From Elusimicrobiota bacterium (GTDB lineage: Bacteria; Elusimicrobiota; Elusimicrobia; UBA1565; UBA9628), in assembly GCA_016218575.1 (NCBI GenBank), contig JACRDN010000018.1, positions 1 through 46,705 on the forward strand: a stretch of DNA of 46,705 bases. Reading direction: 5' to 3'. The notes beneath the pieces were generated by a model. The model made no database searches. It was not told the DNA's origin and saw only the letters and a list, made by a program, of their open reading frames with translations. The translations under genes and the position numbers were made by a program. Positions 13,148 to 30,212 of this stretch are shown here, piece by piece; the first letter of the stretch is position 1, and the number at the start of each line of letters is the position of its first letter.

Positions 13148-13440
13148 GAGCCATGGTCTGGAGCGTGAGCGGTTTTCTATTCGCCTCCGGGCTGGCCATG
13201 GCGGTTTTCCGGCGCCAGTTCCTGGCCATGCTTTTTGGGCTCGAGCTCATGATCAGTGCCGCCAATATCGCGTTGGTTTATTGCGCGGGGATTTCCGTCG
13301 ACCCGGAGGGGATGGGTGCGGCGGCCCTTATCATCGCGCTGGCCGCCGCCGAGGCCGTGGTGGGACTTTCCCTCATCCTGCGCCTCCAGCGGGAGGGGGC
13401 TCTCCTCGATTCCGCCGGTCTTGGGAGCTTGCGGGGCTAG
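13144..13440 (+). CDS. nuoK: NADH-quinone oxidoreductase subunit K
   Basis: 98 residues, three helices, normal length. The two membrane glutamates of the proton path are present: LFGLELMISAANI (helix 2) and AAAEAVVGLSL (helix 3). Start ATG 13144 overlaps the nuoJ stop; the longer open frame upstream is out-of-frame nuoJ. Confidence 0.92.
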   Translation: MRAMVWSVSGFLFASGLAMAVFRRQFLAMLFGLELMISAANIALVYCAGISVDPEGMGAAALIIALAAAEAVVGLSLILRLQREGALLDSAGLGSLRG

Positions 13441-13441
13441 C

Positions 13442-15304
13442 ATGCACGCATTCCCGATGGAGGTCTACGTTCTTTTGGGCGCTCCCGTCGCCGCCCTCTT
13501 TTTGGGTTTCTTCGTCTTTAGGCGATTCAAGCCCGAGTGGACTCACCTTCCCATTCTTGCCTCCTGCGCCGCGGTCTGTGCCGCGAGCGTTTCCCTGGCG
13601 GCTCGGGTCTGCGCGGGCTGGGGCATGGACGCGCCCTTCTACACGTGGGTGGCGGTCGGCGACGTGGGCATCTCCTTCGGGGCCCGCTTGGACGGGCTTT
13701 CCATCTCGGTGTTGGCCATGGTCTCCTTGGTGGGCGGGCTCATCCATGTGTATGCCTGGGGTTATATGAAGAAAGATCCGGGATTCTCCCGCTTTTTTCT
13801 CCTGTTCCACCTGTTCTTTTTCGCCATGATCGGGCTTCTCATATCGAACAACTACGTCCAGCTCTACCTGTTCTGGGAGTTGGTCGGGGTATCCTCCTAT
13901 TTTCTGATCGGATTCTGGCATCAAAAGGAGTCGGCCCGCCGCGCGGCTCTCCAGGCCTTCATGGTCAACCGCGTGGGGGACTTCGGCCTGATGCTGGGCG
14001 TGCTCATCCTGATGGCGACTTTCAAGGCCAATACGCGGTTTAGCTTCATATTTCAGATGATCTCTCTGGCGGACCCCGGATTTCTAGCCTTAGCCGGGCT
14101 CTGCTTCTTTTGGGCGGCCTGCGCCAAATCCGCTCAGTTCCCTCTCTATTTTTGGCTTCCAGACGCCATGGAGGGCCCGACCCCGGTCTCGGCCCTCATG
14201 CACGCCGCGACCATGGTGACGGCCGGCGTGTTCCTCCTGGCCCGCTCCTGGCCCTTGATATCGGCCGTGGCGTTTTTGGGGCCGGTCATGGCTTTAACAG
14301 GGGCTTTTACCTGCGCCGCCGCGGCGCTTTTGGCCTGCACCCGGACCGATTTAAAAAGGATACTAGCCTACTCCACTGTGAGCCATTTGGGCCTCATGGT
14401 CTTCGCCTTGGGCCTGGGTCAGACCGGGGCCGCGGTGTTTCATCTCGTCACCCACGGCTTCTTCAAGGCCGTGCTCTTCCTTTGCGCGGGGAATATCGCC
14501 CACGCCCTGCACAAACCCACTGTCTCGCTCTCGGAAGCAGGGGGGCTCTACAAGAAAATGCCGCTCACTTTTTTCTGCTTCACGGTCGCGGCTTTGTCCT
14601 TGGCCGGGGTATGGCCTTTCGCGGGTTTCTTCAGCAAGGACGCGATCCTGGAGGCGGCCCTGCGTGCCGGGGGGCTCACCGCCGCGACCGGGATCTTGAT
14701 CGGGGTTCTAAGCGCGTTCTATATTTTCCGCATGCTGTTCCTGACCTTCTTGGGTGCTCGCCGAAGCCAGGCCCGCCCCTTGGGCGCGCATGAGGCCGAG
14801 GCCGTCATGGCCGCTCCCATGTTCTTCCTGAGCTTGGGGGCCTTGGGGGTGGGCTGGCTTGCCAAGGGTTTCATCTCGATGCTCCGCTCGGGCTGGGTTT
14901 TCGCAGCACCTCCCGAACTTCCCCCGTTCTCCATGGCGGTGCTCGCCGTGGGCTCGGCCGCGGCCGCGGCCGGAATCGCTTTGGCCTGGGTTTGGAGCTT
15001 GGGGCGGCCCGAGTGGGATTGGGAGTGGCGGCGGCGTTGGCCGGGGCTTGAGCGGCTTCTGAACTGCGATTTTGGCTGGAAGCATGCCGCGGGCCTTGTG
15101 GCCCGCGCCGCAGAGAGGTTGTCTGAGCTGCTGGGACGCCTTTGGGACAGGGCTCTCTGGGACGGTCTCATCGAAAGCTCCGGGTCTTTTTCCCAAATGG
15201 CGGGAGAGGCAGGGGGGCTCCTGGCCACTGGGCTCCTCAATGATTACCTCTGGTGGATGCTGGCCGGGGTCGGGGCCCTCTTGACGACGGTGCTATGGCT
15301 CTGA
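13442..15304 (+). CDS. nuoL: NADH-quinone oxidoreductase subunit L
   Basis: 620 residues, the most distal antiporter-like proton-pumping subunit. Typical segments are LYLFWELVGVSSYFLIGFW with the key Glu of TM5, KSAQFPLYFWLPDAMEGPTPVSALMHAATMVTAG with the broken TM7 Lys/Pro region, DLKRILAYSTVSHLG and VTHGFFKAVLFLCAG. The C terminus carries the long lateral-helix region. Start ATG 13442 lies one base after the nuoK stop; ATG 13457 is an alternative. The stop overlaps nuoM by 10 bp. Confidence 0.93.
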   Translation: MHAFPMEVYVLLGAPVAALFLGFFVFRRFKPEWTHLPILASCAAVCAASVSLAARVCAGWGMDAPFYTWVAVGDVGISFGARLDGLSISVLAMVSLVGGLIHVYAWGYMKKDPGFSRFFLLFHLFFFAMIGLLISNNYVQLYLFWELVGVSSYFLIGFWHQKESARRAALQAFMVNRVGDFGLMLGVLILMATFKANTRFSFIFQMISLADPGFLALAGLCFFWAACAKSAQFPLYFWLPDAMEGPTPVSALMHAATMVTAGVFLLARSWPLISAVAFLGPVMALTGAFTCAAAALLACTRTDLKRILAYSTVSHLGLMVFALGLGQTGAAVFHLVTHGFFKAVLFLCAGNIAHALHKPTVSLSEAGGLYKKMPLTFFCFTVAALSLAGVWPFAGFFSKDAILEAALRAGGLTAATGILIGVLSAFYIFRMLFLTFLGARRSQARPLGAHEAEAVMAAPMFFLSLGALGVGWLAKGFISMLRSGWVFAAPPELPPFSMAVLAVGSAAAAAGIALAWVWSLGRPEWDWEWRRRWPGLERLLNCDFGWKHAAGLVARAAERLSELLGRLWDRALWDGLIESSGSFSQMAGEAGGLLATGLLNDYLWWMLAGVGALLTTVLWL

Positions 15305-16743
15305 CCTTCCTTTGGCTTGTTCCTTTCGCGGGGGCAATCGCCACGGCCTTGTCAGGCGTGGCCTCGGAGCGCGGGCCGCGGCGTATGTCTCTTTTATTCG
15401 CGGCCCTGAGCTTGGCAGCGGTTCTGGCCCTCCCCTGGGGCAGCGGCATCCAGGGGATCTCGGCCTTCGCGGAGCGCGGACCGGCCTGGGCCTTCGGGAT
15501 TCATTATGCTCTGTCCATCGATGGGCTTTCCTGGTGCTTGTGCCTGCTTAACGCCTTCCTCACGGTGATTTCTTTGTTGGCTTCATGGGGAGAGAAGCGG
15601 GCCTGCGGGTATTGGGCGGCTTTCCTCTTGCTGTCGGCGGCATTAATGGGCGTGTTTCTGGCCGCGGACCTGTTTCTGTTTTACATCTTTTGGGAAGCCG
15701 CGCTCATCCCCATGTTCTTCATCATCGGCCTTTGGGGCTCGGAAGGCCGCAGGCACGCGGCCGTCAAATTCTTCCTATTCACGTTCTTCGGCAGCCTCTT
15801 CCTTCTCGTGGGTTTTCTGGCCTTGGTGACCCAGCATCATCAGGCTCTCGGGGCCTGGACCTGGGAACTGGCGAGCCTGAAGGCCCCGGCATCCGGCCGC
15901 TGGGCCAAGACGATTTTCCTGGCTATGCTCGTGGGCTTCGGGGTCAAGATTCCCCTGGTGCCGCTTCACACCTGGCTTCCCGACGCCCATACCGAGGCGC
16001 CCGCGGCCGGCTCCATGATGCTGGCGGGGGTGATGCTGAAAATGGGGGTTTACGGCTTCCTGCGGATACTTATTCCCCTGTTTCCAGACCTTTCCTGGGA
16101 CTGGCTTCCCGCTCTTGGGGCCTTGGCCGCCGTCAACATCCTTTACGGCGCGGTCTGCGCCATGGCCCAAAGCGACTTGAAGAGGCTGGTGGCTTACTCG
16201 AGCATCGCCCACTTGGGGTTCTGCCTCCTGGGGATATTCTCGAAGACTTCCGAGGGGCTTTCCGGGGGTGCGCTCCAACTGATCAACCATGGACTTACCA
16301 CCGGAGCCCTCTTCCTGATGGTGGGGATTCTCTACGAGCGCTCGCATCGCCGCGGCCTCTCCGACTTCGGGGGCCTGGCCTTGCGTGCTCCCTGGCTCTG
16401 CTTTTTCTTCGGCTTCTCGATCCTGGCGTCGATAGGCCTTCCCGGCTTGAACGGCTTCGTGGGGGAATTCATGGCGCTTCTCGGCATGATTCGCGTCCTG
16501 CCGGCCCTGGCCATAGCGGGTGTTTTTGGGGTGACCTTGGCCGCGGCCTACGCCTTGCCCGCCTACCAAGCCGTGTTTTGGGCCGAGGCCGGGCCGGGCT
16601 CGGCGTCCGGGCGGGTCACCGATCTCGACTTGCGCGAGAAGGGGCTTCTGTGGACTTTGAGCCTTCTCATGCTCGCGATAGGCCTTTATCCCAAGCCTTG
16701 GCTCGATGTCCTGCTTCCAGCGGTACAGGGGATTATCCGATGA
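15295..16743 (+). CDS. nuoM: NADH-quinone oxidoreductase subunit M
   Basis: 482 residues, antiporter-like proton channel. Seen: LFYIFWEAALIPMFFIIGLWG (TM5 Glu), VKIPLVPLHTWLPDAHTEAPAAGSMMLAGVMLKMGVYG (TM7/8), DLKRLVAYSSIAHLG and INHGLTTGALFLMVG. ATG 15295 is chosen because it overlaps the nuoL end by 10 bp and starts directly on a hydrophobic helix. Overlaps nuoN by ATGA. Confidence 0.93.
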   Translation: MALTFLWLVPFAGAIATALSGVASERGPRRMSLLFAALSLAAVLALPWGSGIQGISAFAERGPAWAFGIHYALSIDGLSWCLCLLNAFLTVISLLASWGEKRACGYWAAFLLLSAALMGVFLAADLFLFYIFWEAALIPMFFIIGLWGSEGRRHAAVKFFLFTFFGSLFLLVGFLALVTQHHQALGAWTWELASLKAPASGRWAKTIFLAMLVGFGVKIPLVPLHTWLPDAHTEAPAAGSMMLAGVMLKMGVYGFLRILIPLFPDLSWDWLPALGALAAVNILYGAVCAMAQSDLKRLVAYSSIAHLGFCLLGIFSKTSEGLSGGALQLINHGLTTGALFLMVGILYERSHRRGLSDFGGLALRAPWLCFFFGFSILASIGLPGLNGFVGEFMALLGMIRVLPALAIAGVFGVTLAAAYALPAYQAVFWAEAGPGSASGRVTDLDLREKGLLWTLSLLMLAIGLYPKPWLDVLLPAVQGIIR

Positions 16744-18116
16744 GGCTCTTCATGCTGGGGCCCCAGTTGGTCTTGAGCGCCGGGGTTTTGGGAAGCCTCT
16801 TGACGGGGACGATTTTCCCCGACCCCCAGGCCAACGTCCGGCGCTTCTTGAAGGGACTGGTCGTAGCGGCGATCGCGGCGGCGCTCATGCTGGCCGCGTC
16901 GGGCGTTCCCTCCGAGTTCGGGCCGCTCATTCGCGTCGATGGGATTTCCTTGTCATGGCAAGTCCTGCTTTACGCGGCGGCCCTGCCCCTGGCCTTGATT
17001 TTAGGCGTTTGCGACGAGGTTCCGGCGGCCCTGCTTCTGGCGAGCGTCCTGGGCATGGGGCTCTTGGCCGTGTCCTGGAATTTGTTCATGCTTTTCATAG
17101 GCCTTGAGTTCATGTCCCTTCCGGCCTACCTCCTGGTCTCCCGATCCCGGGGCTCGAATTCCGCCGCTCTCGAGGCTTCGGTCAAATATTTTTTCGCCGG
17201 AAGCCTGGCAGGCGCCCTCTATCTCATGGGGATGGCGCTTTATTACGCCAGCGCCAAGAGCCTGGCCTTGGCCTCGGCTACGGGCCGCTTGGCCGATGCC
17301 AGCCTGGTCCTAATGGGAGCGGCGGCCCTGTTCAAGCTGGGTGCCGTACCTTTCCATTTTTGGCTGGCGGACGTGTACGAGGGCTCCGACCCGGAGCTCG
17401 CGGGGTTTCTCTCCACCGCCATGAAGTCCGCGGCCGTCCTATTCCTGATGCGCCTTGCGGCCCTGGCGCCGCATTCGACATTGGCGCGCGCGTTGCCTTG
17501 GGCGGCGGCTTTGACGATGCTCGCCGGGGCGCTCCTGGCCTTGCGCCAGGAAAACCTGCAGAGGCTCTTGGCCTACTCCTCCATAGCCCATGCCGGCAAC
17601 GTTCTCCTTGGAGTCGGGTGCTGGGCGGCCCAGGGAGCGCTCCATTCCCAGGCCCTTGCGGTCTTCTTCTACCTGGCGGCCTACGCCTTCATGAGCAACG
17701 GGGCTTTCCTTTGGCTCAAGGCCTCCGGGATTTCCACCCGCCGTGAGCTCATCGGCTACGCGCGCCGAGATCCCCTTTCGGCGGGAGCCTTCGCGGCCTT
17801 GCTCCTGGCCTTGGCCGGGGTGCCGCCCGGGGCCGGGTTTTTGGCCAAGCTCCTGATATTCTGGGAGGCGTTGAAAACAGGCCTCTATATCCCGCTCGTC
17901 TGCGCCGGGTTGTCGGCCTTGATCGCGATGGGGTACTATCTGTCTTTGGTGAGGGATATGTATTTTGAAGAAGAGTCGGGGACGGGCTCCTCAAGCCCGT
18001 CTTCCCCAGGGGGAACGTTGGCGAGGACTTTGGCATTGGCATGCGCGCTCCCTTCGGCTGTTCTTGGTTTGATGCCCTGGATACTTGATTTCCTGGCAAG
18101 GGGGCTGGCCCGCTGA
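16740..18116 (+). CDS. nuoN: NADH-quinone oxidoreductase subunit N
   Basis: 458 residues, third antiporter-like subunit. Seen: LFIGLEFMSLPAYLLV (TM5 Glu), ASVKYFFAGSLAGALYLMG, FKLGAVPFHFWLADVYEGSDPELAGFLSTAMKSAA (TM7/8) and LQRLLAYSSIAHAG. The DVYEGSDPELAGF loop has D-E where most NuoN have APT.V. Start ATG 16740 overlaps the nuoM stop. A long open frame upstream in this frame is antiframe nuoM. Confidence 0.92.
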   Translation: MRLFMLGPQLVLSAGVLGSLLTGTIFPDPQANVRRFLKGLVVAAIAAALMLAASGVPSEFGPLIRVDGISLSWQVLLYAAALPLALILGVCDEVPAALLLASVLGMGLLAVSWNLFMLFIGLEFMSLPAYLLVSRSRGSNSAALEASVKYFFAGSLAGALYLMGMALYYASAKSLALASATGRLADASLVLMGAAALFKLGAVPFHFWLADVYEGSDPELAGFLSTAMKSAAVLFLMRLAALAPHSTLARALPWAAALTMLAGALLALRQENLQRLLAYSSIAHAGNVLLGVGCWAAQGALHSQALAVFFYLAAYAFMSNGAFLWLKASGISTRRELIGYARRDPLSAGAFAALLLALAGVPPGAGFLAKLLIFWEALKTGLYIPLVCAGLSALIAMGYYLSLVRDMYFEEESGTGSSSPSSPGGTLARTLALACALPSAVLGLMPWILDFLARGLAR

Positions 18117-18117
18117 G

Positions 18118-18471
18118 ATGAACGCCGTCGCCTTCCTCTTCAATTTGATCCTGGTCTCGGTCTTGATCACGGTATTGCTCAAGGCTGGGTCCTGGCTCGG
18201 GCCGCGCCCGGCCCATCAGGGAGACGCGGATATGCCCTACGAGACCGGGATGCCGCCGATCGAGGCGGCTGTCGGGAAAATGTCCGTGCTTTTTTATCGC
18301 TTCGCCGTGCTGTTCGTGGTATTCGACGTGGATCTGGCCTTTCTCCTGCCCTGGGCCCTCAATCGGCCCTTTTTTGGCCTAGGCCAGCTCCTGGTCCTGA
18401 CCTCCTTCGTGGGGCTCCTGGGCCTCATGCTCTCCTATTTCTGGCGCAAGGGAGTCCTGGAATGCCGGTAG
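18118..18471 (+). CDS. nuoA: NADH-quinone oxidoreductase subunit A
   Basis: 117 residues, three helices. The conserved loop before helix 2 is MPYETGMPPIEAA, equivalent to the family's Y/FE(C/S)G; the loop Cys is Thr here. FVVFDVDLAFLLPWA is the hallmark helix-2 motif with its acidic pair. ATG 18118 follows the nuoN stop by one base; the upstream in-frame ATG at 18085 lies inside nuoN. Overlaps nuoB by 10 bp. Confidence 0.92.
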   Translation: MNAVAFLFNLILVSVLITVLLKAGSWLGPRPAHQGDADMPYETGMPPIEAAVGKMSVLFYRFAVLFVVFDVDLAFLLPWALNRPFFGLGQLLVLTSFVGLLGLMLSYFWRKGVLECR

Positions 18472-18938
18472 ACGATTTCGCTCCCGCGGGCACGCTCACG
18501 ACCCAGCTTGACGCGGCCCTGGGCTGGGCGCGCAAGTATTCCATCTTTCAATATCCCTTCGTGACCGCCTGCTGCGGCATGGAGTATATGTCCACCGCGG
18601 CCTCGCATTACGACATGGACCGCTTCGGTGCGGGGTTTCCGCGCTTCTCTCCGCGTCAGGCAGACGTCTTGATGGTGGTGGGTACCATAAGCCACAAGAT
18701 CGCCCCGGTCTTGAGGCGCATCTACGACCAGATGGCCGCTCCCAAGTGGGTGGTGGCCTTTGGGGTGTGCACCTGCACTGGAGGTTTTTACAACGACTAT
18801 GCCACGGTGCAGGGCATAGACACGATTCTTCCCGTGGACCTCTACATCCCGGGCTGCCCGCCTCGGCCCGAGACGGTCCTGCAGGGGCTCATTCTCCTCC
18901 AGGAGAAAATCCAGAGGCAGGGCAGGCGGGGGGCTTAA
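18462..18938 (+). CDS. nuoB: NADH-quinone oxidoreductase subunit B
   Basis: 158 residues, hydrophilic subunit that carries the terminal 4Fe-4S cluster N2 next to the quinone site. All four ligands are visible: the adjacent pair in TACCGMEYM, GVCTCTGGFY and IPGCPPRPE. The GVCTCTGG loop has an extra Cys compared with the common GxCASSGG. Ends TAA, directly followed by the nuoC ATG. Confidence 0.95.
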   Translation: MPVDDFAPAGTLTTQLDAALGWARKYSIFQYPFVTACCGMEYMSTAASHYDMDRFGAGFPRFSPRQADVLMVVGTISHKIAPVLRRIYDQMAAPKWVVAFGVCTCTGGFYNDYATVQGIDTILPVDLYIPGCPPRPETVLQGLILLQEKIQRQGRRGA

Positions 18939-19418
18939 ATGGAATTCGAGAGCCGCTGGGTGGGGCCGGGACGGGCCTTCGATGTGCTCAAATACCTCAA
19001 GGAGGAGGGATACAACGTTTTAGCGGATCTCTTTGGCGTGGATTATTCCAAGCTGGGACGAGAGCCTCGCTTCGAGGTGGTCTATCGCCTGGCGTGCCTC
19101 AACCCTGACACGGGCTTGGAGGACAAGCCTCGCGTGGAGGTCCATTGCGCGACGGCAGAGGAGCCGGAGCTGCGCTCGGTGGCTTCTCTTTGGCCGGCCG
19201 CGGATTGGCTGGAGCGCGAGGTTTGGGACATGTTCGGAATCCGATTTGTCGACCGCCCCGAGATCAAGCGGATCCTCCTTTACGAGGCGTTCTCGGGGCA
19301 TCCCCTGCGCAAGGATTATCCCATCGCCAAGAGACAGCCCCTCATCGGCCCGCCCGCCGGCGAGGCAGAGAACAACCCGAGCTTCAACAGCCAAAGGCCC
19401 GCGCTCAAGTACGAATGA
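18939..19418 (+). CDS. nuoC: NADH-quinone oxidoreductase subunit C
   Basis: 159 residues, peripheral-arm 30-kDa subunit. Conserved C-terminal segment: LWPAADWLEREVWDMFGIRFVDRPEIKRILL...GHPLRKDYP. It packs against NuoD and NuoB. The start abuts the nuoB stop, and the stop overlaps nuoD (ATGA), so it is separate from NuoD rather than fused. Confidence 0.93.
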   Translation: MEFESRWVGPGRAFDVLKYLKEEGYNVLADLFGVDYSKLGREPRFEVVYRLACLNPDTGLEDKPRVEVHCATAEEPELRSVASLWPAADWLEREVWDMFGIRFVDRPEIKRILLYEAFSGHPLRKDYPIAKRQPLIGPPAGEAENNPSFNSQRPALKYE

Positions 19419-20734
19419 GAACCCAAAAAACCTATATGCTCAACATGGGCCCCGCCCACCCGGCGATGCACGGGGTGGTGAGGCTTATTCTGGAATTGGA
19501 GGGAGAACGCATCGTTTCCACCGACGTCGAGATTGGCTACCTTCACCGGGCTTTCGAGAAGCACGCGGAGTCCGAGACCTGGAACAACGTCGTGCCCTGG
19601 ACGGACCGTTTGAACTACGTCTCTCCCCTCATCAACAATTCGGGCTACTGCCTGGCCGTGGAGAAGCTGGCCGGGATCACGATTCCCGAGAGAGGCCAAT
19701 ACCTGAGAGTGATCGCCTCCGAGCTCTCTCGCGTGACCGACCATCTGACCTGCGTCGGGGCCAGCGCCATGGAGCTCGGCTCCTTCACTGTCTTCCTTTA
19801 TCTTGTCAAGGCTCGGGAGTACCTCTACCAGCTCATCGACAGCTTGACTGGCGCGCGCGTCACCACCTCCTACACCCGGGTGGGCGGGGTCAAGGCCGAC
19901 ATGCCGGCGGATTTTCCCGCGGGTTGCCTCGCGGCCTTCAAGAAAGTCCGAGAGGCCCTTGCCGAATCAGACAAGCTCCTCACCCGCAATAGGATTTTCA
20001 TGGACCGCATGGAGGGAACCGGCGCCATCACCCAGGCAGACGCCTTGGCTTACGGCATAACGGGGCCCTTCCTGCGTTCGACCGGCATCCCCTACGACGT
20101 GCGCCGGGCCCATCCGTATCTCGTCTACGACCGGCTCGACTTCGAGGTCCCGGTGGGCGCCAAGGGGGATAATTTCGACCGCTATCTCGTGCGCCTGGCC
20201 GAGATGGAGCAGAGCCTGCGCTTAGTCGAGCAGTGTTTCAAGAAGATCCCGGACGGGGCGCACAGCCTCGAGCCCTCGGAGATGAAGGACGCCTTCGAGT
20301 TCCAGGACGCGGGCAAGCAGGGCGAGACGGCTCTCTTATCCAAGTACAGAGCCAAGGTGGATCAGACTTTGCAGGGGGCGGGCCGGGAGAGCTTCGGCGC
20401 GGTCAAGGCCGCGGAGCGTTCGGCCGTGCTGCCGCCAAAGGAGGAGACCTACGGCAATATCGAGGGGCTCATGAACCATTTCGAGCTTATCATGTGGAGC
20501 TGGGGGATCAAAATCCCGGCCGGCGAGGGTTATTGCGCCGTCGAGGGGGGAAACGGCGAGCTCGGGTTCCACGTCGTGTCATCGGGAGAAGATCGGCCTT
20601 ACCGCGTGCGCTGCAGGCCTCCTTGCTTTTTCATCATGGCGGCTCTGCCCAAGCTCTTGAATGGCTCCTACGTGGCCGACGTGATCCCCACCTTCGGCTC
20701 CGTGAACATGATCGCGGGAGAGCTGGACCGGTGA
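19415..20734 (+). CDS. nuoD: NADH-quinone oxidoreductase subunit D, with insertion
   Basis: 439 residues; family members are usually near 400. It lines the quinone cavity. Conserved: LNMGPAHPAMHG, VEIGYLHRAFEKHAE, RVTDHLTCVG, MDRMEGTGAIT, GITGPFLRSTGIPYDVRRAHPY and FGSVNMIAGELDR at the end. Between the KKIPDGAHS and LPPKEETYGNIEGLMNHFEL segments there is an extra stretch (about residues 284-338) rich in charged residues, some 45 residues longer than usual. Start ATG 19415 overlaps the nuoC stop. It ends in a GTGA junction with nuoEF. Confidence 0.93.
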   Translation: MRTQKTYMLNMGPAHPAMHGVVRLILELEGERIVSTDVEIGYLHRAFEKHAESETWNNVVPWTDRLNYVSPLINNSGYCLAVEKLAGITIPERGQYLRVIASELSRVTDHLTCVGASAMELGSFTVFLYLVKAREYLYQLIDSLTGARVTTSYTRVGGVKADMPADFPAGCLAAFKKVREALAESDKLLTRNRIFMDRMEGTGAITQADALAYGITGPFLRSTGIPYDVRRAHPYLVYDRLDFEVPVGAKGDNFDRYLVRLAEMEQSLRLVEQCFKKIPDGAHSLEPSEMKDAFEFQDAGKQGETALLSKYRAKVDQTLQGAGRESFGAVKAAERSAVLPPKEETYGNIEGLMNHFELIMWSWGIKIPAGEGYCAVEGGNGELGFHVVSSGEDRPYRVRCRPPCFFIMAALPKLLNGSYVADVIPTFGSVNMIAGELDR

Positions 20735-22497
20735 ACACATCCGAGGCCGCGTTCACATCCGAGCAAGCCGCCGCGCTCAAGGCGTGGGCTTCCTATTACC
20801 CCTACAAGCCCATGGGCCTTCTAGAGGCCCTGCGCCTGGTCCAGGAGTGGAACCTCTGTGTCAAGCCCGAGCATGAGCGCTTCGTGGCCGAGATCTTCGA
20901 TTTGCCGGCCTCGCGCGTGCGCGAGGTGGCCACGTTCTTTCCGTTCTTCACCCAAGAGCCCACGGGCAAGAAGCGCATCGGCCTCTGCCACGGCCTTTCC
21001 TGCGCCATGGCCGGAAGCTCGGCCATGGCCTCTTGCCTTGAGAAGAATTTGGGTGTTCCGCCATTTAAGTCCACGCCTGACGGCCGTTTTAGCTTCGAGG
21101 AAATGGAATGCCTGGGGGCCTGCGACTACGCCCCGGCCCTGCTGGTCAACGAAACCTTGGTCGGAGCCGCGAGCCAGGAGTCCATCGCCGCGTCGCTGGG
21201 CCAGGGGGATATCCCCGATTTCCGGTCCCGCCGCGATCCCGTGGCCCAGGGCTACGAGACCACCCGAATATTGACGAGGCATTTCAATGAAGAGAGGCTT
21301 GCCGAACTGCCGGTGTACCGTTCTTTGGGAGGCTATCAAGGCCTTGAAAAGGCTCTGAGCCTCTCCCGGATTGAACTGATCGAGGAAGTCAAGAAGTCGA
21401 ATCTGCGGGGCCTGGGCGGGGCGGGATTTCCGACGGGGATGAAGTGGGCCACGGTGCCTGCCGATGGAAAGGTTCCGGGCCCCCGCTACGTGGTGGCCAA
21501 TGCCGACGAGTCAGAGCCCGGCTGCTTCAAGGACCGCGTGCTCATCGAACGCTCCCCCCATCAACTTTTGGAGGGCCTCCTTATCGCTGCTTATGCCATC
21601 GGGGCCAAGGACGCCTTCGTCTTCATTCGCGGGGAGTACGGGATCCAGTACCGCGTCTTAAGGAAAGCCGTGGCAGAGGCCGAGAAAGCGGGCCTTGTCG
21701 GCGGCAATATTCTAGGAAAGGAATTTTCCTGCCGGGTCAGGATCATGCGCGGGGCCGGGGCCTATATCTCGGGCCTGGACACGGCACTTCTGGAGAGCAT
21801 GGAAGGCAAGAAGGCATGGCCCCGGCAGCCTCCGCCCTTTCCGACCGTGGCCGGCCTCATGGGCAGGCCCACGGTCGTCAACAACGTGGAGACTCTGTCC
21901 ATGCTGCCCGCAATCGCTTTTAACGGCGGGGAGTGGTTCGCCAAGATCGGCGTCCCCAAATGCGGCGGGACCGCGGTGTACAGCGTGAGCGGCCACGTTG
22001 AGCGGCCGGGGGTCTACGAGTTCCCGATGGGTGCCCCGTTGCGCCGCATACTCGAAGCGGCGGGGGGCGTGCGCGACGGCAAGAAGCTCAAGGCCGTGAT
22101 CCCGGGCGGGGCCTCCACGCCCGTACTCTCCTCCCATGAGATCGACGTGTCCATGGATTTCGAGGGCCTGCGCGGGGTCGGCTCCTTCCTGGGAGCGGGA
22201 GGCGTGATCGTCCTCGATGAGACCGTGAACATGGCGGAGGTCGCCCACAACATCGAGCGCTTCCTCGCCCACGAGTCCTGCGGACAGTGCACTCCCTGCC
22301 GGGAAGGCAGCGAGTGGACGGTGAGGATCTTGGAGCGGATCCTCGCGGGGCGGGGCGTGGGGGGGGATTTGCCCAACCTTCAGCGCATCGGCGAGAATAT
22401 CACCGGCAAGGTCATCTGCGCCCTGGGCGACACGGTCGGGGTCGTGACCCGGGGCTTCATGAAGAAATTCCCCAAGGATTTCGAGAGGCATGGCTAA
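20731..22497 (+). CDS. nuoEF: Fused NADH-quinone oxidoreductase subunits E and F
   Basis: 588 residues from GTG 20731, which overlaps the nuoD stop. Residues 1-160 are NuoE (thioredoxin-like fold): the 2Fe-2S cluster N1a ligands are C86, C91, C127 and C131 (LCHGLSC; ECLGACDYAP). From about 171 the NuoF part starts (RDPVAQGYETTRILTRHF), with the NADH/FMN Gly-rich loop RGLGGAGFPTGMKW (usually RGRGGAGFPTG) and the N3 4Fe-4S ligands C517, C520, C523 (SCGQCTPCREG) and C563 (ICALGD). No stop separates the halves; GTG 21241 could be an internal restart for NuoF. The product is the NADH-oxidising tip of complex I. Overlaps nuoG by 8 bp. Confidence 0.93.
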   Translation: MNTSEAAFTSEQAAALKAWASYYPYKPMGLLEALRLVQEWNLCVKPEHERFVAEIFDLPASRVREVATFFPFFTQEPTGKKRIGLCHGLSCAMAGSSAMASCLEKNLGVPPFKSTPDGRFSFEEMECLGACDYAPALLVNETLVGAASQESIAASLGQGDIPDFRSRRDPVAQGYETTRILTRHFNEERLAELPVYRSLGGYQGLEKALSLSRIELIEEVKKSNLRGLGGAGFPTGMKWATVPADGKVPGPRYVVANADESEPGCFKDRVLIERSPHQLLEGLLIAAYAIGAKDAFVFIRGEYGIQYRVLRKAVAEAEKAGLVGGNILGKEFSCRVRIMRGAGAYISGLDTALLESMEGKKAWPRQPPPFPTVAGLMGRPTVVNNVETLSMLPAIAFNGGEWFAKIGVPKCGGTAVYSVSGHVERPGVYEFPMGAPLRRILEAAGGVRDGKKLKAVIPGGASTPVLSSHEIDVSMDFEGLRGVGSFLGAGGVIVLDETVNMAEVAHNIERFLAHESCGQCTPCREGSEWTVRILERILAGRGVGGDLPNLQRIGENITGKVICALGDTVGVVTRGFMKKFPKDFERHG

Positions 22498-24001
22498 ATT
22501 CACCTTGAACGGCAAGCCCGTGGAGGCTCCCGAGGGAACGTTGGTCTTGGAGGCCGCCAAGAAGGCCGGCGTCGAGATCCCGCATTACTGCTACCACCCG
22601 GCCCTGGGCAACCCCGGCAACTGCCGCCTATGCGTGGTGGAGGTGGAGGGCGCGCCCAAGCCCATGGTTTCCTGCCGCCTGCCGGTCAAGGATGGCCTCG
22701 TGGTGAAAAGCGATTCCGAGGCTGCTCGCCGCGCGCAGTCGGCCTCGCTCGAGTTCCACCTCGTGAACCACCCGCTGGATTGCCCGGTCTGCGACCAGAG
22801 CGGGGAATGCGGCCTGCAGGACTATTACATGAAGATCGGCCGCTACCAAAGCCAGGTGCGAGAGGATAAGCTCCACAAGGGCAAGCGCATGCCCATCGGC
22901 CCCCACGTGATGCTCGACCAGGAGCGCTGCGTTCTTTGCACCCGCTGCACGCGCTTCGTGGATCAGGTGACTGGCACCCGCGAACTCGGGATTTTCGGCC
23001 GCGGCCATATGGAGCGCGTGGACCTCATCCCCGGCATGGCCTTGGACAACGCTTATTCCGGGAACGTCGTGGACATCTGCCCGGTCGGGGCCCTCACGGA
23101 GCGTGATTTTCGCTACAAGGTTCGGGTATGGTACCTGGAAGAGACCGACACTATTTGCCCCGGCTGCGCGCGGGGCTGCAACATCTCGCTTCACACCAAC
23201 ACCCAGAGGACCTGGCACAACGAGGGGCGCCGGGCCGCGCGCATCAAGCCCCGCCACAACCCCGAGGTCAACGGCTACTGGATTTGCGACGAGGGCCGCT
23301 ACGGCTACAAAAGCCTGGATCAAGACCGTCTGGGCCGCGTCATTAGGCTCAAACCCCGACAGGAACTATCCTGGGAGAGGGCTTTGGACGAGGTGGCCGC
23401 GGCCCTGAAAAATGGTTTCAAGGCCAAGGGTCCGGAGGGGCTTGCCGTGATCGCCTCGGGGGCCTTTTCCAACGAGGATTGGGCCGCCATGAAGAGGCTA
23501 TTTTGCGACGTGCTGGGGGTGCGCCGCTTCCTATTTTCCCCGGAGCCCGACCAGGTCGGGGAGGAGGACGGGCTCCTGCGCCGCCGCGAGAAAGTGCCCA
23601 ACCTCAAAGGGGGGGAGGCCTTCGGCTTCGGGACCGAGATCCCATCTAAGTCCTGGGAGTCCTTGGCTCGGGAGATAGAGGCAGGCCTGGTTTGGGGCCT
23701 CTACATCGTGGACCGGGACGCGGCCAAGGTGTGGAAGGACAAAGCCGCCGGGCTTTTCTCGCGCCTTGACCTCGCAGTTTTTCAGGGCTCATGTAAAGGA
23801 AAGACCGGTGATCTGACCCATTACCGCCTGCCCGCCACGGCCTACGCGGAGGAGGACGGCCATTTCACGAATTTCGAGGGCAAGACCCAATTCTACCGCA
23901 AGGCCTTGGAGCCGTTGGGCCAAGCGCGAACGGATTGGCGCATTTTTTCCGAGCTCGGCGAGCGCCTGACCCAAAGCGCGCCGCTGGAGGCGGCGCCGTG
24001 A
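22490..24001 (+). CDS. nuoG: NADH-quinone oxidoreductase subunit G, short form
   Basis: 503 residues; most NuoG are 680-900. Cluster sites in order: 2Fe-2S N1b (C34, C45, C48, C62), His-ligated 4Fe-4S N5 (H94, C98, C101, C107), N4 (CVLCTRC... and DICPVGAL) and an extra N7-type 4Fe-4S (CPGCARGC...YWICDEG). The molybdopterin-oxidoreductase-like domain is strongly shortened but keeps ATAYAEEDGHFTNFEGKTQ, a family landmark. So all electron-transfer clusters are present, while the non-catalytic C-terminal domain is reduced. The stop overlaps the GTG of nuoH. Confidence 0.93.
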   Translation: MAKFTLNGKPVEAPEGTLVLEAAKKAGVEIPHYCYHPALGNPGNCRLCVVEVEGAPKPMVSCRLPVKDGLVVKSDSEAARRAQSASLEFHLVNHPLDCPVCDQSGECGLQDYYMKIGRYQSQVREDKLHKGKRMPIGPHVMLDQERCVLCTRCTRFVDQVTGTRELGIFGRGHMERVDLIPGMALDNAYSGNVVDICPVGALTERDFRYKVRVWYLEETDTICPGCARGCNISLHTNTQRTWHNEGRRAARIKPRHNPEVNGYWICDEGRYGYKSLDQDRLGRVIRLKPRQELSWERALDEVAAALKNGFKAKGPEGLAVIASGAFSNEDWAAMKRLFCDVLGVRRFLFSPEPDQVGEEDGLLRRREKVPNLKGGEAFGFGTEIPSKSWESLAREIEAGLVWGLYIVDRDAAKVWKDKAAGLFSRLDLAVFQGSCKGKTGDLTHYRLPATAYAEEDGHFTNFEGKTQFYRKALEPLGQARTDWRIFSELGERLTQSAPLEAAP

Positions 24002-25050
24002 CCTTGTGGATTTTGGCCAAGGTGGCCTTCGCTTTGGGCTTGGGCTTGGGTCTTGCCGGGTTCCTTGGCTGGGTCGAGCGCAAGCAAAGTGCCGTGCTCC
24101 AGGACCGCGTCGGCGCCAACCGGGCCTCAATTTTCGGGATAAGACTGTTGGGGCTGTTTCATCCCATCGCGGACGCTCTCAAGATGCTGACCAAGGAGGA
24201 CTTCGTCCCGAGGAACGCCCGTAGAGTTCTCCACACCGCGGCCCCGGCTATTTCCTTGGGATTCGCTCTCCTCTGTCTGGCGGCGTTCCCCTACGGGGGT
24301 GCGGTTGAGTTCGCGGGGAAGGCCTGGAGCCTTCAGCCAGTGGAAAGCCCCGCGGGCTTGGTCCTGGTCCTGGCCCTCTTGTCCTTGGGGGTTCATGGGA
24401 TTGTGATGGCGGGCTACGCCTCCGGCTCGAACTACGGCCTTTTGGGAGGGCTTAGGGGTGCCGCGCAAATGATTTCCTACGAGGTGTGCCTGGCCTCCAG
24501 CGTGGCCGGGGTCGCCTTCATTTACGGGAGCCTCGACCTGCAGGAGGCCTGCCTCTGGCAGGGCCGGCTCCTGGGCGGCTGGCTTCCGGCTTGGGGGATT
24601 TTCCTCCAGCCCGTGGGTTTCCTTCTCTTCTTGACCGCGGGGGCGGCCGTCACCAAGCGCACGCCCTTCGACCTTCCGGAGGGGGAGGCCGAGATCGTGG
24701 GCTACCATGTGGAATACTCCGGCATGAAATTCGGCATGTTCCTCATGACCGACTTCGTTGAGTCCATCGTGATATCTGCCCTGGCCGTGACCTTGTTTCT
24801 TGGCGGCTGGCAGATTCCCTTCGTAGCGCCCGCCGGGCCTTGGGGGGGGGCGGCCATGGTGGCGAGCTTTACCGCCAAACTCATGCTCGTCCTCTTCTTC
24901 CTGATGCAGGTGCGCTGGACTTTGCCTCGCCTGCGCTTCGACCAGCTCCTGGATCTAAGCTGGAAGAATATCCTGCCTTTGTCCCTCCTCAATTTCATCG
25001 CCACGGTCTGGGGAGTCTACTTCTTGAAGGGGGGACGGCTATGGCGGTGA
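23998..25050 (+). CDS. nuoH: NADH-quinone oxidoreductase subunit H
   Basis: 350 residues, eight helices, quinone-channel subunit. Conserved: GWVERKQSAVLQDRVGANRAS (usual QxRxGPNRVG), LGLFHPIADALKMLTKED, GLLGGLRGAAQMISYEV and FDLPEGEAEIVGYHVEYSGMKFGMF with the acidic loop of the quinone entry. Start GTG 23998 overlaps the nuoG stop; a longer frame upstream lies inside nuoG. Overlaps nuoI by 10 bp. Confidence 0.93.
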   Translation: MTLWILAKVAFALGLGLGLAGFLGWVERKQSAVLQDRVGANRASIFGIRLLGLFHPIADALKMLTKEDFVPRNARRVLHTAAPAISLGFALLCLAAFPYGGAVEFAGKAWSLQPVESPAGLVLVLALLSLGVHGIVMAGYASGSNYGLLGGLRGAAQMISYEVCLASSVAGVAFIYGSLDLQEACLWQGRLLGGWLPAWGIFLQPVGFLLFLTAGAAVTKRTPFDLPEGEAEIVGYHVEYSGMKFGMFLMTDFVESIVISALAVTLFLGGWQIPFVAPAGPWGGAAMVASFTAKLMLVLFFLMQVRWTLPRLRFDQLLDLSWKNILPLSLLNFIATVWGVYFLKGGRLWR

Positions 25051-25565
25051 TAGTCCGTCCCGTTTCTCGCCCGAGCCGCACTTTCAGGGAACAGATTTAC
25101 CTGTGGGAAGTGTGGAGAGGCCTTCTCGTCACCTTCCGCCACCTGTTCGTGAATCTTTCTCGCCACGCCAGGCGCTCCGTGGGCCTTGCGGCGCCGGAGG
25201 GAGCCGTCACCGTCCAGTATCCGGAGGACCCGGCTGTCCTGGGAAAAAGGGCGCGCACCCGGCACAGGCTGCTCAAGCGAGGGGACGGCTCGCCGCGCTG
25301 CACGTCCTGTCTTCTCTGCGAGACCATTTGCCCGGCCAAATGCATCCATATCACGGCCGAGGACAGCCCCGACGTCCTGGTGGAGAAGCGCGCCAAGACC
25401 TTCGACATCGACCTCGGGCTTTGCGTCTTCTGCGGCTATTGCGTGGAGGCTTGCCCAGTGGACGCCATCCATATGGACGCCAACGAGGTCGAGCTTTCCT
25501 CGTACAGCCGCAAGGACATGATCTGGACCTTGCCCGAGCTCATGGGGGACAAGAAAAAGCAATGA
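25041..25565 (+). CDS. nuoI: NADH-quinone oxidoreductase subunit I
   Basis: 174 residues with two 4Fe-4S ferredoxin motifs, CTSCLLCETICPAKC and CVFCGYCVEACPVDA (clusters N6a and N6b). These wire NuoG to NuoB. An N-terminal amphipathic segment is followed by the usual YPEDPAVLGKRARTRHRL region. Last nuo gene; its stop overlaps the start of the diadenylate cyclase (ATGA), so translation continues directly into the c-di-AMP genes. Confidence 0.94.
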   Translation: MAVIVRPVSRPSRTFREQIYLWEVWRGLLVTFRHLFVNLSRHARRSVGLAAPEGAVTVQYPEDPAVLGKRARTRHRLLKRGDGSPRCTSCLLCETICPAKCIHITAEDSPDVLVEKRAKTFDIDLGLCVFCGYCVEACPVDAIHMDANEVELSSYSRKDMIWTLPELMGDKKKQ

Positions 25566-26446
25566 ACCAGAACCCTTTCGAGGCCTTCGGCCTGTCCGAC
25601 TTCTTGGACATCGGCTTGGTGGCCGTGCTCATTTACGCCCTCTTGGTATGGTTCAAGCGCACCAAGACCGCCTTCGTGGCGCGAGGGCTTCTCATGCTGG
25701 CATTGGTCTACACCTTGGCCCGGGTCATGCGCATGTACATGACGGTTTGGATATTCCAGGGGTTCTTCGCGATCCTATTCATAGCCATCGTGGTCATTTT
25801 CCAAGAGGAGCTGAGGAGCTTTTTCGAGCGCATCGCGGTGTGGAGCCTCACCGGCGCCAGCCCCCAGGAGGAGCCGGTCTCGCGCCAGACTGAGATCATC
25901 GTGAGGTCCTTGTCGGATCTTGCCCACGACCGGATCGGGGCTTTGGTGGTCCTCAAGGGGCGCGATCCCCTGGACCGGCACGTGGAGGGGGGTTGGGACT
26001 TGGACGGGGAGATGTCGGAGGCCCTCATTAAGAGCATCTTCGACTCGCACTCCCTCGGTCATGACGGGGCTCTTCTCATCGAGAACGGCCGGGTCAGCCG
26101 CTTCGGGGCTCATCTGCCCCTGTCCAAGGAATTCGGGAAAATCACGAACATGGGCACGCGGCACACCGCGGCCCTCGGTCTCTCCGAGCGCACAGACGCC
26201 CTGTGCCTGGTGGCCAGTCAAGAGCACGGCACCATCGCCATGGCCCGGGGCGGGGAGATATCGCAGGTGAGCAACCTCAGGACCCTCCAGAAGACCGTGG
26301 AGAAATTCCTGGAGGCCTTGGCTCCCCATACCCGCGAGGAAAGCTTTAGGCATTTTTTCCGGCACAACGTGGGGGAAAAGCTCATTGCCCTGGGTCTCGC
26401 GGTCCTCATCTGGCTGTTTTTCGTGGGATTCGGCGGCATCCGATGA
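25562..26446 (+). CDS. cdaA: CdaA-type diadenylate cyclase with extra C-terminal membrane helix
   Basis: 294 residues. Residues 10-85 hold three membrane helices as in CdaA. Residues 105-235 are the DAC (DisA_N) domain, with DGA at 168-170 (metal/ATP contact) and GTRHTAALG at 198-206; most family members read GTRHRAA, so the second Arg is Thr here. The domain condenses two ATP to cyclic di-AMP. After it, residues 269-290 (NVGEKLIALGLAVLIWLFFV) form a fourth helix that looks like the N-terminal anchor of the partner protein CdaR/YbbR; no separate ybbR gene is present. Start ATG 25562 overlaps the nuoI stop and the end overlaps the DHH gene (ATGA both). The Thr substitution leaves some doubt about activity. 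Confidence 0.85.
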   Translation: MNQNPFEAFGLSDFLDIGLVAVLIYALLVWFKRTKTAFVARGLLMLALVYTLARVMRMYMTVWIFQGFFAILFIAIVVIFQEELRSFFERIAVWSLTGASPQEEPVSRQTEIIVRSLSDLAHDRIGALVVLKGRDPLDRHVEGGWDLDGEMSEALIKSIFDSHSLGHDGALLIENGRVSRFGAHLPLSKEFGKITNMGTRHTAALGLSERTDALCLVASQEHGTIAMARGGEISQVSNLRTLQKTVEKFLEALAPHTREESFRHFFRHNVGEKLIALGLAVLIWLFFVGFGGIR

Positions 26447-27489
26447 AAATCTCTTTTCATGCTCGGCGCCTTCTCTCCTTCCTGGACCAGGAGGCCGGCA
26501 AACTCAGACCCCTGACGATCTTGACCCACGACCATCCGGATCCGGATTCCCTCGCGAGCGCCTGGGCCTTGGCGCACCTTGTCCAGGGGGTGGCCAAGGT
26601 GCGTACGCGCATCCTCTACGGAGGAATCATCGGCCGGGCCGAGAACCGCCTGATGGCCGAACGCCTGACCATCCCGGCCCATCCCCTGCGCAAGGGAGAG
26701 CTTGCCCAGGCCCAGCATTTGGCCTTGGTGGACACCCAGCCGCCTTTTCGCAACAACCGCTGTCCGCCGCGCCGCAAGCCGGACCTCATCATAGATCACC
26801 ACCCGCGCCACGCCGACACGCAGGCTGATCTTCTCCTGATAGACGAGAGCGTGGGAGCTACCAGCACCATATTGGCCGAGGCCCTGCTCGCCTCCGGCAT
26901 CAAGATCCCCAAGAGCCTTGCCACCGCCATCGTCTACGGGATCGGCTCCGAGACGCAGAACCTGGGGCGGGAGGCCGGAGATCGGGACATCGCGGTCTAC
27001 CAGGCCCTCTGGCCGAAGGCTCACATGAAGGCCCTTTGGCGGATTTCCTATCCCAAGAGGCCGGGGGCATTTTTTTCAATCCTGGCCCGCGGCATCCGCA
27101 ACGCCTTTGTATGCCGCAACATCATCGGAGTAAGCCTCGGCCCCCTGCAGACCCCGGACCGCGTGGCTCAGATCGCGGACTTTCTCCTCACTCACGAAAA
27201 AATGGGCTGGTCGGTGGTCACCGGGCGCTGGCAGGGGCGGCTCTACATCTCGCTGCGCACCAACGATCCTTCCGGGAGGGCAGGAAGGCTCTTGAAGCGC
27301 CTGCTCGGGGGTGGAAACCGGGGCGGGGGCCACTCCATGATCGCCGGGGGCTCCATCGAGGTCGGGGTCGAGGCTCCCGAACCGAGATGGCAGGAGAAGG
27401 AGGAGGAGGTCGTCTGCGCCTTCCTCACGAGCCAGGGGATCAAGGAGCCCTCCCAGCGCGTTTATCCCTTTCGCGACGAGTCGGCGTAG
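26443..27489 (+). CDS. DHH-DHHA1 family phosphoesterase (candidate c-di-AMP/pApA or nanoRNA hydrolase)
   Basis: 348 residues. DHH domain: motif HDHPDPDS (29-36) in place of DHPDGDA, VDTQ (96-99) and DHH (118-120), which bind two Mn2+. The C-terminal DHHA1 domain has GGGHSMIAGG (294-303) for substrate binding. There is no PAS, GGDEF or membrane part, so it is not GdpP itself. By architecture it resembles stand-alone NrnA/DhhP-like enzymes that cut c-di-AMP to pApA, pApA to AMP, or short RNAs. Being translationally coupled to the diadenylate cyclase argues for the c-di-AMP pathway. Ends at a TAG that is part of a hairpin shared with the convergent gene. Confidence 0.82.
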   Translation: MKISFHARRLLSFLDQEAGKLRPLTILTHDHPDPDSLASAWALAHLVQGVAKVRTRILYGGIIGRAENRLMAERLTIPAHPLRKGELAQAQHLALVDTQPPFRNNRCPPRRKPDLIIDHHPRHADTQADLLLIDESVGATSTILAEALLASGIKIPKSLATAIVYGIGSETQNLGREAGDRDIAVYQALWPKAHMKALWRISYPKRPGAFFSILARGIRNAFVCRNIIGVSLGPLQTPDRVAQIADFLLTHEKMGWSVVTGRWQGRLYISLRTNDPSGRAGRLLKRLLGGGNRGGGHSMIAGGSIEVGVEAPEPRWQEKEEEVVCAFLTSQGIKEPSQRVYPFRDESA

Positions 27490-28422: not shown

Positions 28423-29403
28423 TTAAGACTGACCTCGCCGCCTTTTGATCTCGGCGGTGATGAGTGGGAGGAGCTCGTTGAGGTCTCCCTGGACGGAGAT
28501 GCTGGCCATCTGCATCATGGGGCAGTCCGGATCGGTATTGAGGGCGATGATGGTCCCGGAGGAGGACATCCCCGCCAGATGCTGGATCTGGCCGGAGATT
28601 CCGCAGGCCAGATACAGCTTGGGCCTGACGGTGCGACCGGTGAGGCCGACCTGATGGCGGTAGGCGATCCAGCCAGAGTCCACCACCGCGCGGCTGGCTC
28701 CGACCGCGGCCCCCAGGGCCTGGGCCAGCTCGCGGATGGCCTTGAAGGCCTCCGCCGAGCCAAGGCCCCGGCCGCCCGAGACCACTCGCTCGGCGTTGGC
28801 TAGGTCGATCTCGCTGCTCTCCTCCGGCTGGTAGGACAGGAATTCAATGCGACTCTCGACCGACGCATCCAGGGCGACGGGAACAATCTCCCCGGCGCGC
28901 CCCGCCTGCTTCTCAGCGGGGGGGAAAACCATGGCCTGGACCGTGAGGACTTGGGTCTGGGACTTGAACTCGAGCTCGGAGACTACGTTGCCGCTATATT
29001 GGTAGCGCTTGGCCTTGAGGCCCGTGCCGTTCTGGCGCACCTCGCAGACCTCCGAGGCTAGGCCCGCCTTGAGAAGGACCGAGAGGCGCGCGGCCAAGGA
29101 GCGCCCCGCCACGGTGGCGGGAAGAAGAATCTGGCCGAGGCCCTCCTTCCGGGCGAGAGCCGCCAGGGTCTTGGCGTGGAGCTCGTCGTTGAAGTTGTCG
29201 AGCCTGGGGTCCGATAGCGTGAAGACCTTGTCGGCTCCGCGCTCGAGCAGGTTCTTGGCGAACTCGGGGGCCTTGCTGCCGAGAACCGCGGCGCACAATG
29301 GCTCCTTGCGGCTGTCGGCAAGCGCCCGGCCGGCCGTCAAGAGCTCGTAGGCGGCCGGGATCATTTTCCCGCGCGGGGTCAGGGCGACTGTTAAAATAGC
29401 CAT
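28423..29403 (-). CDS. etfA: Electron transfer flavoprotein subunit alpha
   Basis: 326 residues. The C-terminal FAD-binding domain is complete: VVSGGRGLGS, GASRAVVDSGW, HQVGLTGRTVRPKLYLACGISGQIQH and IIALNTDPDCPMMQMA. It passes electrons from acyl-CoA or similar dehydrogenases to the quinone pool or to a bifurcating partner; which one cannot be told here. Start ATG 29403 overlaps the etfB stop by one base (TAATG). The longer frame upstream lies inside etfB. Confidence 0.94.
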   Translation of the reverse strand: MAILTVALTPRGKMIPAAYELLTAGRALADSRKEPLCAAVLGSKAPEFAKNLLERGADKVFTLSDPRLDNFNDELHAKTLAALARKEGLGQILLPATVAGRSLAARLSVLLKAGLASEVCEVRQNGTGLKAKRYQYSGNVVSELEFKSQTQVLTVQAMVFPPAEKQAGRAGEIVPVALDASVESRIEFLSYQPEESSEIDLANAERVVSGGRGLGSAEAFKAIRELAQALGAAVGASRAVVDSGWIAYRHQVGLTGRTVRPKLYLACGISGQIQHLAGMSSSGTIIALNTDPDCPMMQMASISVQGDLNELLPLITAEIKRRRGQS

Positions 29404-30212
29404 TAGATCAGTTTCCTCTCTACCAGAATATCCACGAGCTTCTTGGCTTTCTCTGCGGCGGTGGCGCCCTCGACCCTGATTCCCCCGGGGCGGGGAGGAG
29501 GGGGGGAGTAGCGCAAAACCGTGGTGCTGGAGAGCGCTGCCTGCAGCTCCCTGGGATTTAGGCCGAGGTCCGCGGAACTCCATTTGGGTATGGCCGCCTT
29601 TTTGGCCGCCATCTTTCCTTTGAGGGAGGCCAGGCGCGGTTCGTTGATCTCCTTGACCGTGGAGAGCGCGGCTGGGAGGGCGACCTTGAGGACCTCGACC
29701 CCGTCCTCCACCGTGCGCCACACCGTGGCGGACTTCTCGTCTATCGCGTCTATTTTCTTGATGGAAGTGAGGCCCGGCCAATCGAGCCAAGCCGCGGTTT
29801 CAGGCCCGACGGCGCCCGAGTTTCCATCGTTGGTATTTTTGCCGAAAAGGAGCAAGTGCACGGGCTTTTCTGCGTGAAGCTTCCTCACGGCCGCGGCCAA
29901 GGCGAAGCTCGTGGCGTAGGGATTGGCGTCCGCGAATTCCGGCCCCGTCACCAGCACTCCCGCGTCGCAGCCGCGGGAGATCGCCTCCCGCAGGACCGCC
30001 TCGCAGGAGGAGTCCGGGCCCAGAGTGAGTGCTGTGGCCGTGGAGCCGGGCAAGCGCTCCTTTAAGCGCAAGGCCTCCTCGACCGCGTACTCGTCGAACG
30101 GGTTCATGGCGTAGGAGAGCCCGGCGGTCTTGAGCTTCCCGGTGGCAGAGTCCACGGGCATGTTGACCGTGGCGGGAGTATTCTTCACACAGACTATGAT
30201 ATTGAGTGGCAT
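29403..30212 (-). CDS. etfB: Electron transfer flavoprotein subunit beta
   Basis: 269 residues. Typical N terminus IIVCVKNTPAT, MNPFDEYAVEEALRLKE, then LLLFGKNTNDGNSGAVGPETAAWL (the nucleotide-binding loop, usually G.qaiDgd.gqvgp..A) and LPAALSTVKEINEPRLASLKG. Start ATG 30212 has AGGTGA four nt upstream and AGGAG a little further. First gene of the etfBA operon. Confidence 0.94.
   Translation of the reverse strand: MPLNIIVCVKNTPATVNMPVDSATGKLKTAGLSYAMNPFDEYAVEEALRLKERLPGSTATALTLGPDSSCEAVLREAISRGCDAGVLVTGPEFADANPYATSFALAAAVRKLHAEKPVHLLLFGKNTNDGNSGAVGPETAAWLDWPGLTSIKKIDAIDEKSATVWRTVEDGVEVLKVALPAALSTVKEINEPRLASLKGKMAAKKAAIPKWSSADLGLNPRELQAALSSTTVLRYSPPPPRPGGIRVEGATAAEKAKKLVDILVERKLI

Follow-up and report, generated by a model that had tools for sequence, protein, structure and literature searches.

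A diadenylate cyclase gene and a DHH-DHHA1 phosphoesterase gene behind a complex I operon of an Elusimicrobiota bacterium, a putative c-di-AMP turnover module

The closest described systems are the cyclic di-AMP (c-di-AMP) synthase CdaA (DacA) of Firmicutes and other Elusimicrobiota families, its regulator CdaR (YbbR), the cdaA-cdaR-glmM operon, and the DHH-DHHA1 phosphodiesterases Pde2/NrnA, DhhP, Rv2837c, TmPDE and the catalytic domain of GdpP. A link of c-di-AMP with respiration is known mainly from genetics of Staphylococcus aureus. In this species, cells without c-di-AMP are rescued by mutations in respiration genes, and c-di-AMP is not needed anaerobically (PMC5836111). Literature searches, in which few subscription papers were covered, gave no direct description of a CdaA-YbbR fusion, of c-di-AMP in Elusimicrobiota, or of complex I in Elusimicrobiota. 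The window analysed here, a stretch of 46,705 nucleotides (nt), is the entire contig C18 (JACRDN010000018.1) from the 2.8 Mb genome of an Elusimicrobiota bacterium. It carries a complex I (nuo) operon followed by genes for a CdaA-like diadenylate cyclase (cdaA) and a DHH-DHHA1 phosphoesterase (dhh). The cdaA-dhh pair has a long history and a wide distribution; its attachment to complex I, by contrast, is specific to one family and is loosened or broken in some relatives. We regard it as reasonably probable that the pair serves c-di-AMP turnover and is expressed jointly with complex I in this genome. The features are as follows (ORF, open reading frame; aa, amino acids; DAC, diadenylate cyclase).

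12653..25565, plus strand, complex I operon nuoJ-K-L-M-N-A-B-C-D-(EF fusion)-G-H-I (ORF and Pfam calls)
25041..25565, plus strand, nuoI, the last nuo gene (Fer4 ferredoxin domains by Pfam; best NCBIfam match TIGR01971 NuoI)
25562..25565, plus strand, ATGA overlap of nuoI and cdaA (sequence)
25562..26446, plus strand, cdaA, CdaA-like diadenylate cyclase, 294 aa (Pfam scores over the cut-off for PF19293 and PF02457; structural similarity of the model to solved CdaA DAC domains)
26057..26077, plus strand, GHDGALL codons with the DGA active-site motif of the cyclase (translation, alignment A1)
26153..26176, plus strand, GTRHTAAL codons, in which the RHR motif is RHT (alignment A1, tabulation)
26336..26428, plus strand, C-terminal helix of the cyclase, residues about 259-289 (alignment A1, Pfam YbbR matches in relatives, model)
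26443..26446, plus strand, ATGA overlap of cdaA and dhh (sequence)
26443..27489, plus strand, dhh, stand-alone DHH-DHHA1 phosphoesterase, 348 aa (Pfam domains, alignment A2, structural similarity to solved GdpP, TmPDE and NrnA)
28423..30212, minus strand, etfA and etfB, convergent to the dhh side, used as synteny control (Pfam ETF domains, conservation counts)

The cyclase has N-terminal membrane helices, a DAC domain and an extra C-terminal helix. It shares with CdaA (DacA) the CdaA_N membrane domain (PF19293, E=4e-9, 37 bits, cut-off 23.8), the DAC domain (PF02457, E=9.5e-32, 109.5 bits, cut-off 27), the HDGA motif (GHDGA) and the fold, as its model matches solved CdaA DAC domains with a TM-score of about 0.9, normalised by target. 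It differs in RHT for RHR, in the extra C-terminal helix and in its identity of about 30% to the canonical CdaA of the phylum, and its locus has no adjoining glmM, folP or ftsH. As in the cdaA-cdaR-glmM operon, the cyclase gene stands together with partner genes, but here the partner encodes a phosphoesterase, and nuo serves as the host operon. A canonical cdaA-glmM setting could be dismissed, as glmM adjoins 0/42 family loci.

In the tree, the class to which this cyclase belongs forms a branch of 55 sequences separate from the canonical CdaA proteins of the phylum, with a support of 100 in the Shimodaira-Hasegawa-like approximate likelihood ratio test (SH-aLRT). Outside the family, class members have lengths of about 380-494 aa and extend beyond the C-terminal helix, their ends being YbbR-like in those that were scored (Pfam E=2.8e-7 in locus L134, 3.3e-4 in L105, weaker or unscored in others). 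Intact cyclases of the family have about 290 aa and end right after this helix, which aligns with the helix preceding the YbbR-like domain of the related cyclases. The likeness to CdaR is confined to this helix; the YbbR-like domain is absent from the protein, and none was detected in its own genome by search. Judged by the DAC sequence and the RH[TSAL] motif, the cyclase shares descent with the fused CdaA-YbbR class. It is best placed not with standard CdaA but in a distinct class of CdaA-like enzymes that carry a fused part resembling CdaR/YbbR, a part that this family has reduced.

The DHH-DHHA1 gene forms a tight pair with the cyclase gene, as the sequence-only reading of this DNA had proposed: the gap is at most 20 nt in 37 out of 40 family loci, and dhh adjoins the cyclase gene in all loci of the sister family f2. 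By profile search, this DHH family was found in 42 of 295 genomes of the phylum; 39 of them are within the order, all with the cyclase. In other taxa, 16 of 40 contigs with this cyclase class have a dhh homologue beside the cyclase gene, downstream in Omnitrophota, upstream on the same strand in Verrucomicrobiota and Bacteroidota, and on the opposite strand in some; such neighbours are also present in contigs of Planctomycetota and Deltaproteobacteria. The occurrence of one pair in several gene orders argues for a functional link. The cyclase is the sole DAC gene in this genome, and no PgpH-type (7TM-HD) phosphodiesterase was found there by search. In genome G292 (locus L075, 9982-11008), dhh is split over several frames, owing to frameshifts or an assembly error.

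Concerning the operon, both ATGA overlaps and the coordinates proposed earlier agree with the sequence, and nuoI is the last nuo gene in the order nuoJKLMNABCD-EF-G-H-I. Its protein scores 109.4 bits on TIGR01971, with a cut-off of 113.05. The set from NuoA to NuoN is complete; B, C, D, EF, G, H, I, J and K were recognised by Pfam, and A, L, M and N were assigned from translations and are conserved in relatives by tblastn. NuoE and NuoF are fused in one frame of 588 aa (20731-22497). An uninterrupted NuoE-NuoF frame is also present in seven other family loci, and most others match from NuoF only. The nuo junctions mostly overlap or lie within about 10 nt, with 4-nt overlaps also at nuoM/N, nuoC/D, nuoD/EF and nuoG/H. 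Because 4-nt overlaps are thus the local style, the ATGA junctions alone are weak evidence and indicate only a dense operon. As this compact operon runs into cdaA by 4-nt overlaps, the earlier proposal of one message with complex I is very probable for this genome.

Up to 19 kb around the cyclase gene was fetched in the order, with 42 family loci obtained besides the window. In 40 of these, nuoI is upstream of cdaA on the same strand; the arrangement is not unique to this genome, which the sequence-only reading would have taken as its refutation. The distance between the two genes is at most 20 nt in 18 loci, 21-300 in 8, 301-1000 in 7 and above 1 kb in the remaining 7, and 4-nt overlaps persist in several genera of the family. 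Inserts of 0.3-6.6 kb separate nuoI and cdaA in 14 family loci. Those on the same strand, named by reading translations, are a radical-SAM-like ORF in genus g5, an SPFH-like ORF in G292, and pilin-like and small membrane ORFs in genus g4. Opposite-strand ORFs are inserted in genomes G299, G300 and G127, where a simple nuo-cdaA operon would be broken. In G307, nuoH is upstream of cdaA and nuoI was unrecognised. Directly before nuoJ in the window, on the same strand, lies the gene of a lysylphosphatidylglycerol-synthase-like membrane protein (lpgTM, 11571-12626). The order in G099 is lpgTM-ORF-cdaA-dhh-etf, with a nuo operon on another contig, so the complex I genes seem to have been removed there from their place between lpgTM and cdaA. 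In the 8 loci of sister family f2, cdaA-dhh is kept without nuo, and nuo operons of the same type are located elsewhere in both f2 genomes inspected. In family f3 of the same order, NuoH homologues are present, but neither a DAC gene nor any protein of this DHH family was found. The nuo linkage is consequently a family-level trait and not an order-wide rule, and the conserved unit is cdaA-dhh, as the linkage varies within the family and is absent in f2 and f3. The "fixed link" to complex I that had been supposed is not supported.

The best surviving alternative, to which we give slightly less than even chances, is that cdaA-dhh landed behind nuoI once and has stayed there as a passenger by descent, held by synteny or by a housekeeping promoter, with no functional link to respiration. 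The confinement of the arrangement to a single lineage agrees with this, and so do its absence in f2, its interruption by opposite-strand genes in G299 and G300, the separation in G099 and the DAC-less NuoH homologues of f3. The convergent etfA, which cannot share a message with dhh, is also conserved in 19 of the 28 family loci whose sequence extends far enough, so general synteny accounts for some of the conservation of the linkage. The persistent 4-nt overlaps speak for more than passage by descent, as does the same-strand nuoI link, which is kept somewhat better than this control (40/42 vs 19/28, raw counts uncorrected for relatedness).

Both domains were recognised by Pfam in the stand-alone DHH protein (DHH, E=2.7e-10; DHHA1, 6.2e-6), and its motifs are HDHPDPD, VDTQP, DHHP, GSETQN and GGGH. 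The model, with a predicted local distance difference test (pLDDT) of 90, matches GdpP with pApA, Rv2837c, TmPDE, S. aureus NrnA/Pde2 and Bacillus NrnA. Domain order, fold and the DHH and GGGH motifs are the same as in the known DHH-DHHA1 phosphodiesterases; the protein differs from them in low identity (15-20%), in the pairing of its gene with a cyclase gene, and in motif IV, where the metal ligand Asp is replaced by Glu (E170), invariant in alignment A2 and aligned with Asp of the GdpP domain. RecJ identity was rejected on length, architecture and fold ranking. No separate RecJ gene was found in the genome by Pfam DHH, the single DHH-domain gene being dhh.

A tentative alternative, held at roughly one chance in three, is that this protein is mainly a housekeeping NrnA-type nanoRNase or pAp phosphatase that is paired with the cyclase for the removal of pApA. 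It is the only DHH gene detected in the genome, its fold is about equally near to NrnA and to GdpP/TmPDE, and in G004 (L134) a DHH-DHHA1 protein with stronger Pfam scores adjoins the cyclase. On the NrnA family NF053633 of NCBIfam the protein scores 21.7 bits, far below the cut-off of 350. A general housekeeping nanoRNase would not be expected to be nearly confined to genomes with this cyclase class, as the family is among the 295 genomes of the phylum. Since dhh co-occurs with the cyclase, c-di-AMP and pApA are favoured over short RNA as putative substrates.

It seems unlikely that the change in RHR has left the cyclase without catalytic activity or with a different product. For CdaA the motif GxRHRxA has been given, and Leptospira CdaA is inactivated when the first Arg is mutated (PMC12974146). 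The sequence here reads GTRHTA; in every scored member of the class the residue after RH is T, S, A, L or M, vs RHR in 25 of 27 canonical CdaA proteins of the phylum. The cut-off of the CdaA equivalog TIGR00159 of NCBIfam was also narrowly missed (179.2 vs 188.8 bits). Yet HDGA, the first Arg and His are invariant in a 17-member alignment, the acidic S-x-E position is kept, and the class has been preserved in many phyla, where a phosphodiesterase-like protein often accompanies it.

It is still less likely that the cyclase has turned into an accessory of complex I, sensing the complex, its pump activity or the proton gradient by its membrane helices, with the C-terminal helix working without a YbbR domain and c-di-AMP as a respiratory signal in the family: domain loss with helix retention and nuo linkage do mark the same family, but this is a single coincidence on a tree, the short form is also kept in G099, where nuo and cdaA are unlinked, and the tree leaves the number of domain losses at one or two.

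In the reading that we favour, the first gene product would be a membrane-anchored diadenylate cyclase of the distinct CdaA-like class, and the second a cytoplasmic DHH-DHHA1 phosphoesterase, most likely removing c-di-AMP and/or its product pApA. The ancestral cyclase would have had a CdaR/YbbR-like extracytoplasmic domain fused via the extra C-terminal membrane helix. In the ancestor of the family, this domain would have been lost with the helix retained, likely once (two changes on a quick tree, one forced by supported branches), and cdaA-dhh placed behind nuoI. In this genome the pair would be transcribed, and probably translated, with complex I, and because of this joint expression the capacity for c-di-AMP turnover would likely rise and fall with the quantity of this complex I, and c-di-AMP would in turn restrain the proton-gradient-driven uptake of ions or osmolytes. 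One message for cdaA-dhh and complex I is probable in this genome, and direct respiratory signalling is possible, though at the low likelihood stated above.

Several observations weigh against this reading. In many relatives nuoI and cdaA stand loosely spaced or separated, at distances from -16 to +6,589 nt inside the family. The activity of the cyclase is uncertain, because the second arginine of RHR is replaced and RHR-to-AAA abolishes the activity of Mycobacterium tuberculosis DacA (PMC3328451). The low identity of the DHH protein is to solved phosphodiesterases that include nanoRNases. None of the three c-di-AMP receptor types searched for (RCK_C, the ydaO riboswitch and KdpD) was found in its own genome, and the osmotic clue described below comes from other phyla.

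Designation of this complex I as the main proton pump, made by the sequence-only reading, was not established either. A second complex I-like cluster on contig C21 (C21:1-20000) has nuoA, B, C, D, H, I, L, M and N homologues, with no NuoF or NuoG match recognised, and a third NuoH homologue is on contig C17 beside NuoM-, D-, I- and B-like genes. A gene for B12-dependent ribonucleotide reductase (8805-11558) is also upstream of nuoJ on the same strand.

Gene neighbours of the class in other phyla differ from those of canonical CdaA. In the canonical loci of the phylum (n=27), FtsH was found in 23, GlmM in 19 and FolP in 17, vs none of these in the 40 other contigs of the fused class. In the latter there are GlgE (8), TreS (6), OtsAB (6), TreT (4), DUF5752 (4) and MgtE (8), besides the 16 with dhh. 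Trehalose/maltosyltransferase genes (GlgE, TreS, OtsAB, TreT, DUF5752) are near the fused class in loci L193, L190, L198, L212, L216, L209, L221, L122 and L134 of several phyla, and no trehalose gene is beside the canonical CdaA loci examined in the phylum. MgtE-type cation transporter genes with CBS domains adjoin the cyclase class in L171, L173, L197, L211, L212, L215 and L220. The trehalose/GlgE neighbours suggest a link between c-di-AMP and compatible solutes, and together with those for divalent-cation transport they fit an original role of the class in osmotic and ionic control. Coupling of c-di-AMP to respiration, proposed earlier for this locus, is plausible because of the S. aureus precedent, although these neighbours would place osmolyte and ion control first in ancestry.

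The module of cyclase and phosphoesterase, built on the fused CdaA-YbbR-like class, thus spans several phyla and stands near osmolyte and ion genes. One bacterial family appears to have shed the extracytoplasmic domain and joined the module to complex I, and it may serve as a natural experiment, as its linked, inserted and unlinked relatives bear on whether c-di-AMP output follows respiration.

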